From: Isosphaeraceae bacterium
Lineage (GTDB): Bacteria; Planctomycetota; Planctomycetia; Isosphaerales; Isosphaeraceae
Reading direction: 5' to 3'
Assembly (NCBI GenBank): GCA_025356475.1
Contig: JANXSX010000104.1
Span: 1-63,408 of the forward strand
DNA length: 63,408 nucleotides
A program made the translations under genes and the position numbers. Of this stretch, positions 642 through 12,086 are shown one piece after another. A model generated the notes under the pieces. That model was given only the letters and a program-made list of their open reading frames with translations. It was not told where the DNA came from and made no database searches. Every line of letters starts with the position of its first letter. The first letter of the stretch is position 1.

Positions 642-3600
642 ATGAGTTTCTTGCGTGCTCGGTTTGCTCTGGTTTCTTGGCTCTTGCTGACTTCGTTTCT
701 GTTTGCACAGGACCCCAAACCTAGCCCGGCGAGCGATCCGGCCCGGGACAAGGAAATTGCCGAGATTAAGAAGCAGCTTGAGGAGCTGAACGCCAAGCTC
801 AAGAAACTGAGCGATCCAGCCGCCCCTTCCATCCCCGAAGGGATCCTTGCTGAGACCTACACCAAGTCGCTGCAGTGGCGTCCCCTTGGGCCGGCGGCGA
901 TGGGGGGCAGAATCACAGCCCTCTCCGTGTCTGAGGCCGATCCGAGCCTGTGGTATGTCGCAACCGCCAGCGGCGGACTCCTCAAGACGATCAATAACGG
1001 GGTGACATTTGATCACTTGTTCGATAAGGAAGTCACCGTCTCGATCGGAGACGTGTGTGTCGCTCCATCGAACAAGGATATTGTTTATATCGGCACTGGT
1101 GAGGGTAATCCGCGAAACTCGGTTTCTTATGGCGACGGCATCTACAAGTCCGTTGATGGTGGCAAGACCTGGACGAATGTCGGGCTCAAGGATTCGTTCC
1201 AGATCGGCAAGATTTTGATCCATCCCAAGGACCCCAACATCGTCTATGTTGGGGCACTCGGGCGGCTCTATGGCCCCAATGCCGAGCGTGGACTTTTCAA
1301 GACCATCGATGGCGGTAAGAGTTGGAATAAGATCCTCTTCGTCGATGAGAAGACGGGCGTCATCGAGATGAAGATGAAGCCGGATGACCCTGAAACCTTG
1401 ATCGTGGCAATGTATGAGCGTCAGCGTGACCTTTACGACTTCAACGACCCGGTGAAGAAGATTGGGCCTGGCTCGGGCTTGCACAAGACGACCGATGGGG
1501 GCAAGACCTGGAAGAAACTGACGAAAGGCCTTCCCACCAACCAACTCGGTCGTGTGGGACTCGACTTCTGGAAGAAGGATCCGAACGTTGTTTTTGCCGT
1601 AATCGAGTCCGCAAACATCGGCAAGGGACCGACCCCCGCAGCGAAACCTGGTGACCCGGCCAAGCCGACCGAGACCAAAGCGAGCGCTGAGAAGAAGGAA
1701 GCCGCTCGCGAGAGTCGCCAAGCGAGCGAGTCCGGCGAAGGCGAGGCCGCCCAGCCGCGACCTCCGCAACAGGCTTCGCCTGGCCCGGTCTTTCTGGGCG
1801 TTACTGGTGATTCGGTAACGGGCGACGGCGGGGCCAAGCTGGATGGAGTCGCCGACGACAGCCCTGCATCAAAGGCCGGTCTCAAAGTGGGTGACGTGAT
1901 CACTGCTATCGGTGACAAACCGATCAAAACGTACGCCGAACTCGTGAGCTTCGTGCCGACCAAGAAACCTGGCGAGAAGGCCAAGGCGAAGGTCCAGCGC
2001 GAGGGGAAGGAGCTTGAGATCGAGATCACGTTCCTGTCTCGGCCGGGGGACCTGACCCGAGATGGGGTTATGGGTCTTGGGCTCGATCCCAAGAAGCCAT
2101 TCGGAGGGCTCCTGGGGGGTCAGATCGAGAACGTCCAAAATCGGCAAGGCCCAGAAGGGTTTGAATATGGAGGGATCTACAAGTCGGTCGATGGCGGTGA
2201 GAGCTGGACTCGGATCAACAGCCTGAACCCACGTCCCATGTACTTTAGTCAGATTCGTGTGGACCCCAGCGATGATCAGTTCCTCTTCGTGCTTGGGATC
2301 GCGGTTCATCGCTCCACCGACGGCGGCAAGACGTTCCGAACCGATGTCGGTCGCGATGCCCACTCGGATCATCACGCGCTCTGGATCGACCCACGCGATG
2401 GTCGACACCTGGTTCTCTGCGGTGATGGTGGAATCTATCAGAGCTATGATCGAGGGGCCAAATTCGACCACTACAATCATGTTGCGATCGGCCAGTTCTA
2501 CCATGTCGCGATCGACACTCGGAAGAATTATCGGGTCTATGGCGGTTTGCAAGACAACGGAAGTTGGGGTGGTCCAAGCGTTCTCCGCAACGGTGGCTCG
2601 GTCAATGAAGACTGGCTCAATATCGGTGGAGGTGACGGCTTCAAGTGTCAGGTGGATCCCAACGACGCTGACCAGGTCTATTACACCTCGCAGAACGGGG
2701 CTATGGGCCGACGAAACCTGAAGACCTTAGAAGCTGCCGGGATTCGACCAATCACCACTCCCGGTAAGACCTATCGATTCAACTGGAACACCCCGTTTTT
2801 GCTTTCAAGTCACAACTCGCGGATCTTTCTCACCGCAGGCAATGTGGTGTTCAAGTCACTCGACCGAGGCAACGACTTGAGAGCCATTTCGCCCGAGATC
2901 CCCAAGACGAAGGAGGGCTCGGCGACCGCCTTGTCCGAATCGCCCAAGAATCCCGACGTGATTTACGTTGGCACCGATGACGGCGCATTCTGGATGACCA
3001 AGGACGGCGGCAAGAATTGGGTGGATATCCAGGCGAATGTCGGACTTCCCAAGCCCTGTTACGTCGCGACGATCGAAGCATCACGTTACGAGGAAGGACG
3101 CGTTTATGCCTGTTTTGACGGGCATCGGTCTGATCTCGACGATCCGTTGATCTTTGTCAGTGAGGATTTCGGCAAGACCTGGAAGGCGATCAAAGGCGAA
3201 CTGCCCCGAGGCTCAACCCGTTGCTTGCGTGAGGATATCGCCAACGCAAACCTTCTTTGGCTCGGCACCGAGTTTCATGCCTATGCCTCGATCGATCGCG
3301 GCGAACACTGGAGTAAGATCAACAACAACCTGCCAACCGTCGCGATCCATGAGTTCGCTCAGCACCCGACGACTGGCGAAATTGTGGTCGCAACCCATGG
3401 TCGAAGTCTCTGGGTGACCGACATTAGCTCGATCCGGCAGACGACCAAGGATGTCCTGAAGAACAAGGTCACTTTGTTCAAGCCTTCGCCGGTGATCCGC
3501 TGGCGGAATGAGCCCTCTCGGGGCGGAACGAACCGCAAGTTCGAGGGACAGAATCCACCGCGAGGCGCTTCGGTCTATTATTATTTGGGCGAAAAGGCGG

Positions 3601-7764: not shown

Positions 7765-7865
7765 ATCAAAACGTGGCCCGTTGCTTTCAATCATAGATCT
7801 CGTGGTCGCAACCCGATTCGTTGTTTGTTGCATTCAGCATGATCCTGACCGAGAATGCTACGATC

Positions 7866-8942
7866 ATGAGAGATCCTGTAGAGCCCCGAAATCGAGTGAA
7901 GGCCAGACGAGTCGATCGCGCCTGGTCCCAGGAAGATTTGGCGCGACGGGCGGGAATCTCCCGTGCGGCGGTGAGTGCGATTGAAGTCGAGCGTCTTGTC
8001 CCATCCGTTGCGGCTGCGCTGGCAATTGCGGCGGCTTTGGGATGTTCGGTCGAGGAACTGTTTGGCGGATCAGCCTCATCCGATTCGTCCCCAAACTGGG
8101 CATGGCCAGTCGGGGTCAAGCCAACTCGATTCTGGAGAGCGGCGGTTGCAGGCCGGACTTGGCTCTATCCGGTCGAACCGACGAATGTAGGAATGATCGG
8201 GCATGACGGCCACTTTGATGGCGTTCACATCCAAGTGGGCAACGAACTCCAGCCCGAGACGACGCTGGTCATGGCGACTTGCGACCCCGCCGTCGGCCTT
8301 CTCGCTGCGGAATATACGCGAGCCACAGGTTTTCGATTGATTCCCCTGATTCGCTCAAGTAGTGAGGCACTCTCACTCTTGAATCGCGGGCTCGTCCATG
8401 CGGCGGGAGTCCACTTCGCGACCGATGGCGACGAGTCCGGAAATGCCAGTGCCGCCACGGATCGGACCGGAATGCCGATCAGTCTCTTGAGCGTCACTCG
8501 GTGGGAGGAAGGTTTGGCCTTAGGCTCCTCCGTGACATCCCGCTCGATCTCGGGAGTGGTGAAGTCGGACCTAATCTGGGTGGGTCGCGAGTCTGGATCG
8601 GCTGCTCGACTCAGGCTCGACGAGCTTCGTCCTGGCGCACCCGTTCCTCTGAAGCAGGCATTCGATCATCGCGGAGTCGCCGAAGCGGTCCGGTGCGGGT
8701 GGGCTGAGGCAGGCTTGTGCCTGAGACTCGCTGGGGAAGAGGCAGGCTTGCGGGTCCTGGGCCTGCGGTTCGAGACTTATGACCTCTGCTTCACCAAGCA
8801 AGAGGAGTCCGACCCACGTCTTCAAGCTTTGATCCGCGTCGTCCGTTCGACATCCTACCGCCGTCTCCTCGCCGAATTGCCCGGGTATGACCCGAGGATC
8901 GCTGGGGAGCTACGACATGTGGCGGACAAGGCGAAGGAGTGA
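7866..8942 (+). CDS. XRE-type HTH regulator fused to a periplasmic-binding-like domain
   Basis: Read from ATG 7866 the protein has 358 residues; ATG 7839 would add nine. Residues about 9-62 form a Cro/CI helix-turn-helix (WSQEDLARRAGISRAAVSAI). The remainder from about residue 95 resembles the PBP_like/molybdate-type substrate-binding domain (TLVMATCDPAVGLL, LNRGLVHAAGVHF, GWAEAGLCLRLAGEEAGL). This is a one-component sensor: a cytoplasmic version of a solute-binding fold is tethered to a DNA-binding domain. The ligand could be a small oxyanion or metabolite. It is convergent with the aspartic-protease gene, nine bases away, so its targets are not obvious from context. Confidence 0.85.
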   Translation: MRDPVEPRNRVKARRVDRAWSQEDLARRAGISRAAVSAIEVERLVPSVAAALAIAAALGCSVEELFGGSASSDSSPNWAWPVGVKPTRFWRAAVAGRTWLYPVEPTNVGMIGHDGHFDGVHIQVGNELQPETTLVMATCDPAVGLLAAEYTRATGFRLIPLIRSSSEALSLLNRGLVHAAGVHFATDGDESGNASAATDRTGMPISLLSVTRWEEGLALGSSVTSRSISGVVKSDLIWVGRESGSAARLRLDELRPGAPVPLKQAFDHRGVAEAVRCGWAEAGLCLRLAGEEAGLRVLGLRFETYDLCFTKQEESDPRLQALIRVVRSTSYRRLLAELPGYDPRIAGELRHVADKAKE

Positions 8943-8951
8943 GAGGGATTC

Positions 8952-9393
8952 TCAATATAATTCGTAGACGTGTTCACCATTATGGGCAGGGTTGCCGATA
9001 AGCGTGTGGCTTCGCATGTCGATGACGAAGTCCAGGTGCTCGAGCGGAATCTGACCGATCAGAACGGGCACACCGTCGGGAACTTCGAGGACGTCCATCG
9101 TGCAGCTTCGACCCCTGATCGTCAGCCTCACCGCTTCGTAGATGGCTGCTTCCGCCGGCCCTGCAGAGCTGAGGACTCGCCGGGTACCAGTCTGCGAGAG
9201 ACCCAACTCCTTGATCAAACTCGCGGGAACGGAAAGGAGCGTGGCACCGGTATCGACCAGAGCATCTCCAACGTGCAGAACCCGAGCGTTTTCCGGCGGG
9301 ATCCGACCGCATTCCGCATCCCAAAGATCCTTGAGGTTTTCGATCTTCGCCTCAGTGAGAACCCGGACGCCGGACGCCGGACGCTTTCTCCAT
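8952..9393 (-). pseudogene. Clan AA aspartic protease gene frameshifted by a 7-bp repeat
   Basis: A strong ribosome site (GGAGGTGAAC) precedes ATG 9393, but the frame stops after 13 codons. The protease frame, open from 9395 down to 8952, has no ATG, GTG or TTG before the catalytic region. It encodes KIENLKDLWDAECG, then the retropepsin-type DTGATLLSVPASL active-site motif and a C-terminal PVLIGQIPLEHLDFVID segment. Between the two lies CGGACGC three times in tandem (9364-9384). Removing one 7-bp copy joins MEKASGVR directly to VLTEAKIEN and restores a 144-codon gene typical of planctomycete aspartyl-protease-family proteins. The gene is thus broken, phase-variable or affected by an assembly error. 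It lies 36 bases downstream of glnA. Confidence 0.8.
9364..9384. repeat. Tandem 7-bp repeat, (CGGACGC)3
   Basis: Three perfect adjacent copies of CGGACGC occupy 9364-9370, 9371-9377 and 9378-9384. On the minus strand they fall at codons 4 onward of the aspartic protease gene. Copy number changes of one shift the reading frame by one base; two copies (or five) keep the protease in frame, while three do not. This is the classic layout of a slipped-strand contingency repeat, though three copies is short. Confidence 0.9.
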
Positions 9394-9429
9394 GTTCACC
9401 TCCAAGGAGTCCCTGTCTCTCAAGCAATC

Positions 9430-10950: not shown

Positions 10951-11313
10951 ATGCCTCGCTTCGTCATCCTCGAACACACGTGGAACGGGGTCCACTGGGA
11001 CATCATGCTCGAGGCTGGGGAAACCTTGCGGACATGGGCGGTCGGCGTACCGATCACCTCGGGCGGGGCAATCCCGGCCCGTGGACTCGTGGACCATCGC
11101 CTTAAATACCTCGATTACGAAGGTCCAATCTCCGGGGGCCGGGGCTTCGTGACCGGCTGGGATTCGGGAAGCTATCGCGTCTTTGAATGGTCCGAGTCGC
11201 ATGTCCTGATCGCTCTCAAGGGCCATCAACTCCTGGGCCTGCTTGAGCTTCGGGCGGTTGCTGGAACCACCGCGTCCTGGTCGCTCGTGTTTCTGCCCGG
11301 TAAATCCGACTGA
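10951..11313 (+). CDS. Stand-alone LigD N-terminal (3'-phosphoesterase-like) domain protein
   Basis: This 120-residue protein starts at ATG 10951. It matches the N-terminal 3'-phosphoesterase domain of bacterial DNA ligase D: FVILEHTWNGVHWDIMLE supplies the paired His and Asp metal ligands, followed by LRTWAV, VDHRLKYLDYEGPISGGRG and a C-terminal beta strand. In LigD this domain trims 3' ends during non-homologous end joining. No ligase, polymerase or Ku gene is near, so this is a single-domain version whose nuclease activity is unproven. Its 3' end overlaps the convergent neighbour by 88 bases. Confidence 0.8.
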   Translation: MPRFVILEHTWNGVHWDIMLEAGETLRTWAVGVPITSGGAIPARGLVDHRLKYLDYEGPISGGRGFVTGWDSGSYRVFEWSESHVLIALKGHQLLGLLELRAVAGTTASWSLVFLPGKSD

Positions 11314-12086
11314 CGAGCCCTTCGAGGGAGGCTTGGAGTTGCGACATCCCCTTTGCTTCGGTCAGACCTTCCCGTGAGCCTGATCTCGCCTGGTCGGATC
11401 AGGATTTTTTCGAGCACGATATCCGACCGCTCCGTCTGCGGGCTGTATCGGAGGATTGCAGTGCTTGGCCCATTCGAATCATTTTCCCAGGTGACTTCAA
11501 ACCCGCGAGAGGCGGCGTAGGTGTTGATCTTATCGACCAGCTTCTGAACAGGGATGGGCAGGAGCCCTGCTCGGACTTTTTCGATGGTCAGTGCCAGGAC
11601 ATTTTCTTCAGGGACTTTCACTGCCGCGACAACCCAGACTACCGATCGGATCGGTCCTTGATCGAGTTCGAAAGCCAGGGTGAGCCGATCTTTCTCGAAC
11701 GAGACACGAGGGTTATCGACCCCCGGCGGGATCTGGTCGGCGAACTGGGTCACGAGATCTTCAGCCAGCCAGGAGTTCACTTCCTGATCGGTGAAGATGG
11801 CCTCCCAGTTCGGCTCGTTGCGGATATCGTTGCGGAGTTGAAGGCTCTGCGCGACAAATTTCTGAGCCTCAGCCTGCCGAACCGCGATTGATACCGTCTT
11901 GAATTGACGGTAGAAGTTCGGCTGGAGTGTCAACAGGAACCAGAATAACGCCGGCACAAAGGCGACAATGGCCGTTCCGCTCCCGAGGACCACGCATTTC
12001 TTACCTGTCTTGCGCATGGGCAACCTGCCTGCGATTGAAGACGGGGACGAATCAGATGGGATGAAGATGAGCGAGGTGTCGGACAT
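11226..12086 (-). CDS. Hypothetical single-pass membrane protein
   Basis: A 286-residue product from ATG 12086; ATG 12017 (MRKTGKKCVVLGSG) is an equally good start that puts the basic residues right before the membrane helix (about residues 31-51). The exported part includes EPNWEAIFTDQEVNSWLAED and a later pair of beta-rich segments, without a family I can name. The last 30 or so residues, which overlap the convergent LigD-N-like gene by 88 bases, are Arg/Ser-rich and look like read-through beyond a lost stop. Upstream, 443 bases separate it from a divergent gene. Confidence 0.7.
   Translation of the reverse strand: MSDTSLIFIPSDSSPSSIAGRLPMRKTGKKCVVLGSGTAIVAFVPALFWFLLTLQPNFYRQFKTVSIAVRQAEAQKFVAQSLQLRNDIRNEPNWEAIFTDQEVNSWLAEDLVTQFADQIPPGVDNPRVSFEKDRLTLAFELDQGPIRSVVWVVAAVKVPEENVLALTIEKVRAGLLPIPVQKLVDKINTYAASRGFEVTWENDSNGPSTAILRYSPQTERSDIVLEKILIRPGEIRLTGRSDRSKGDVATPSLPRRARQSDLPGRNTSDQDAVVPATARSSSRPRS

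Follow-up and report, generated by a model that had tools for sequence, protein, structure and literature searches.

The locus and its predicted product

The locus lies on the minus strand of a 63,408-nucleotide stretch of an Isosphaeraceae genome (hereafter, the window), and it combines a ribosome-binding site, a start codon, a short tandem repeat, and a reading frame for a protease, to which the start codon is not joined (Table 1). Along the minus strand the order is GGAGG-TGAAC-ATG-GAGAAA, followed by three copies of GCGTCCG, followed by GGTTCTCACTGA, with GGAGGTGAACATGGAGAAA flanking the array on its 5' side. A GGAG or GAGG motif is likewise found upstream of the gene in most of the relatives. 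The original prediction, that three tandem copies stand downstream of ATG 9393 and its strong ribosome site, and that translation from this ATG in the three-copy state ends at 13 codons, is confirmed by the sequence. Its arithmetic is also correct: the protease frame is offset by one base from the frame of ATG 9393, and seven bases fewer would join the two into a frame of 144 codons. As is expected of a contingency locus, the number of copies in the array determines the reading frame behind the ATG.

Table 1. Features of the protease locus and its neighbors (positions are those of the window)
Feature	Position	Strand	Remarks
Body of a retropepsin-type aspartic protease, 137 aa and stop, with no joined start codon	8952..9365	-	Open frame
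Catalytic motif VDTGAT	9240..9257	-	Upstream of TTG 9218
Present ATG frame, 13 codons (MEKASGVRRPGSH), then TGA	9352..9393	-	Starts at ATG 9393
GCGTCCG array, exact, 3.14 copies	9363..9384	-	Tandem Repeats Finder; net gain of 7 bases versus most relatives
Codons -2/-1 before Arg-Val	9366..9371	-	GGC GTC here; start-type codon and Gly in nearly all relatives
Shine-Dalgarno GGAGG	9399..9403	-	5 nt ahead of the ATG; read directly
XRE-type HTH fused to a PBP-like ligand domain (PF12727)	7821..8942	+	Convergent with the protease gene
Stand-alone LigD 3'-phosphoesterase-like domain (PF13298)	10951..11313	+	Beside glnA in several relatives
Protein without a Pfam match	11226..12086	-	Beside glnA in several relatives

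The suggestion that the out-of-frame ORF is of the retropepsin type is well supported, by the DTGA motif, by a match to Pfam PF13650 (Asp_protease_2) above the cut-off, and by a structure model (mean pLDDT 78, built on an alignment of eight sequences) that adopts a retropepsin fold, the matches to the model including retroviral, Ddi1, and Rickettsia (5c9f) retropepsins. The score against NCBIfam TIGR03698 (clan_AA_DTGF) falls under the cut-off, and a sequence search of the PDB with the protease returned no significant match. With a D-T/S-G motif and a modeled retropepsin fold, the predicted product is of the retropepsin-like kind. The first canonical in-frame start codon, TTG 9218, lies downstream of the catalytic motif, and thus no canonical start would give an active protease as the sequence stands. 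An automatic gene caller would probably pick TTG 9218, resulting in a truncated protein missing the catalytic Asp.

The 5' end of the gene in related genomes

Relatives of the gene were found by whole-genome searches within the same family and class, and the 5' ends of 49 of them were compared. Most start with METATMG or a similar sequence, exactly seven codons ahead of an Arg-Val pair, conserved in the relatives, at which the first strand of the modeled fold begins. In 36 of the 49 relatives a start-type codon precedes Arg-Val by exactly 21 nt, versus 28 nt in the window, so that seven bases were gained in the lineage of the window, and by arithmetic a two-copy version would restore the spacing of 21 nt. 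The 7-bp repeat is absent at this site from all the relatives of at least 45% identity (the nearest are only approximately 70% identical), and no relative shows a break of the frame there. Relative to the intact homologues, the frame in the window is broken, as in a pseudogene.

The comparison also reveals a second conserved start-type codon in this family. The codon at position -2 before Arg-Val is ATG, GTG, or TTG in 47/49 relatives, and the codon at -1 encodes Gly in 45/49. Where the residue at -2 is Val it is encoded by GTG in 11 of 11 cases, although 35% of the Val codons across these genes are GTG; the probability of such uniformity is approximately 9e-6, or 2e-4 if only some eight genera are treated as independent, suggesting that the start at -2 is used. 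In several relatives a start at -7 is missing, and these seem to rely on the one at -2. Judging from these codon patterns, codon -2 is probably a used start, either alone or jointly with the first ATG. Nested in-frame starts five codons apart (-7 and -2) can be seen, for example, at the relatives' loci L033 (positions 2980-3000), L005, L006, and L044, and the GGAG inside the initial ATGGAG could act as a ribosome site for the start at -2, making nested initiation possible in this protease family, whose conserved pair of start codons is a testable feature.

In the window, positions -2 and -1 read GGC GTC under both the three-copy and the two-copy readings, and so the repeat displaced the second start and its Gly, besides shifting the frame of the first start. 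Two copies would leave both missing, which makes the two-copy "ON" state an assumption; it rests on frame arithmetic and not on a demonstrated ancestral state. The array may have originated either stepwise, via a two-copy form already without the second start and Gly, or in a single templated event. The original prediction had named relatives fixed for a stable frame with a different start codon as a finding that would speak against it, and this is in part what we see, as the frame is stable in the relatives and nearly all of them have the additional start that is missing here.

The array in its genome and the age of the break

The 21-mer of the array occurs once in the window, with zero occurrences expected from shuffled sequences, and once in the entire 5.9 Mb genome, a draft assembly of 232 contigs. 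A scan of 1.59 Mb (27% of the genome) for exact arrays of at least three copies recovered the GCGTCCG array alone in the period range of 7-12, along with arrays of periods 4, 5, and 6, while Markov-simulated sequence of the same size contained, in six replicates, arrays of periods 4 and 5 only, and none of periods 7-12. The GCGTCCG array thus exceeds chance expectation. Its solitary position within the scanned 27% speaks against an abundance of switching loci in this genome.

The body of the protease retains 52 of the 53 residues invariant in close relatives and 19 of the 19 invariant in the wide set, a retention no worse than that of the intact relatives, and its differences from the relatives are mostly at third codon positions. 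From one change observed over approximately 119 non-synonymous sites in 53 codons, a rough Poisson bound places unconstrained drift, by our estimate, under approximately 4% per site. Such an undecayed body points either to a recent break or to a gene still under selection in some of the cells.

Distribution and gene context

The protease gene is present in 19 of the 45 genomes of the order, and the glutamine synthetase gene (glnA), its neighbor in the window, in 44 of the 45. In the examined loci of the relatives, mostly of 3 kb and with a positive control included, neither glnA nor the XRE gene adjoins the protease gene. Likewise, the glnA loci of 11 relatives have no adjoining protease gene, although most of these loci conserve the genes that lie upstream of glnA. 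No conserved gene context hinting at the role of the protease was found in the loci compared, and a plasmid search with the protease protein gave no match. Stops or split frames are present in seven homologues (G002:C208, G003:C192, G127, G202, G244, G258, G315), some of which may be draft errors. These breaks are unrelated to the break in the window and lie elsewhere in the gene, and together with the patchy presence they form the picture of independent breakage that is typical of pseudogenes. One further homologue, on the minus strand of locus L044 (near position 1662, in an assembly of six contigs), has a one-nucleotide frameshift near codon 83 and is otherwise undecayed. The patchy presence, the varied location, and the broken copies are characteristic of an accessory gene undergoing gain and loss.

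Interpretation

Of the three options originally offered, a contingency locus, a fresh knockout, or an assembly error, the fresh knockout is the best fit and the contingency locus is left weak. We consider it likely that the window carries a loss-of-function allele, of recent origin, of a single-copy accessory gene for a retropepsin-like protease. The three copies of GCGTCCG would have arisen at the 5' end by slippage during replication or by a templated micro-insertion, with a net gain of seven bases that would have put the first start out of frame, and the repeat would have taken the place of the conserved second start codon and its glycine. Slippage appears the plausible mechanism, the event appears to be recent, and the present allele would not be translated into an active protease. 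Any short tandem repeat may lose copies at a low rate. Loss of one copy would return ATG 9393 to frame and may occur at a low, unselected rate, and in our best reading the null allele is reversible by chance only. Precedents exist for the components of this scenario: short repeats are frameshift hot spots, as exemplified by CTGG indels in lacI (PMC3485313), and in the GeneTack analysis an isolated frame break absent in relatives was attributed to indel mutation or sequencing error, while the search for phase variation was made among clusters of related genes (PMC3711429). Three observations sit less easily with a null allele: the total absence of decay in the body, which also suits a gene still used in some cells, the strong ribosome site retained at the first ATG, and the array itself, which is the sole one of its kind found and occupies the best position for a switch. 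As a null allele, the locus would be of little importance beyond correct annotation.

It is unlikely that the locus is a contingency locus, at which slipped-strand mispairing would alter the number of 7-bp copies (two or five on, three or four off) and reversibly switch the protease. The exact array from codon 4 onward, behind a strong start, the frame arithmetic, and the intact body agree with such a switch, and neuO of E. coli K1 is switched in this manner through a 7-bp repeat close to its start (PMC13001214). The originally proposed on/off role of the repeat holds as to position and arithmetic, but further marks of switching are not apparent: the array is short (3 copies versus 21 in the neuO example), is shared at this site by no relative, and has no other of its type in the scanned part of the genome. 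Moreover, a return to two copies would leave the second start and Gly missing, the gene has a patchy distribution and unrelated mutations have broken it in relatives, and a retropepsin-like protein with no obvious surface role would be an unusual target. A more specific version, in which the repeat of a planctomycete heptanucleotide contingency locus would have replaced the second, nested start, leaving expression to be set by the first start and the copy number, we hold to be rather improbable. If the copy number did vary, this would be a phase-variable gene in the phylum Planctomycetes, on which a single open-access library, searched by text, yielded no obvious earlier report of phase variation, and it would suggest that this uncharacterized protease family is costly under some conditions.

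An assembly or consensus error, with two copies or some other sequence in the true genome and the gene intact, is quite doubtful as well. The draft state of the assembly and the undecayed body would be in accord with it, but an array of 22 bp is far below read length. Assemblers also tend to drop whole repeat copies and not to add them, and with the second start and Gly missing even at two copies, the region is unusual at any copy number. Finally, it is highly improbable that the protease is made despite the break, through +1 ribosomal frameshifting within the array or by initiation at a non-canonical codon (CTG or ATC, for example), as the undecayed body and a near-cognate CTG in frame ahead of DTGA would allow: no canonical start precedes DTGA, inspection revealed no ribosome site before the near-cognate codons, and programmed frameshifting is rejected on the grounds that no relative shares the break and that no known +1 slippery site was recognizable on inspection.

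Comparison with known systems

The closest parallel in design is the neuO gene of E. coli K1, which is phase-variable through a 7-bp repeat in the 5' part of its coding region, with 21 copies in the strain studied (PMC13001214). In both, a 7-bp unit is repeated close to the start of a coding gene and its copy number sets the frame, but neuO has many copies and measured mixed populations, while the array described here has 3.14 copies and relatives without the repeat. A search of papers for duplications in pneumococcal capsule genes returned nothing. The CTGG hot spot of lacI is a triple repeat. It resembles the GCGTCCG array as a short tandem repeat within a coding gene where the gain or loss of one unit breaks the frame (PMC3485313), and it differs in having a 4-bp unit and measured mutations, whereas here the outcome alone is seen. 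As to the product, the protease differs from the bacterial clan AA retropepsin-like proteases in scoring under the TIGR03698 cut-off and in having here a frame with no joined start, but it is like them in its DTGA motif, its PF13650 match, and its modeled retropepsin fold.
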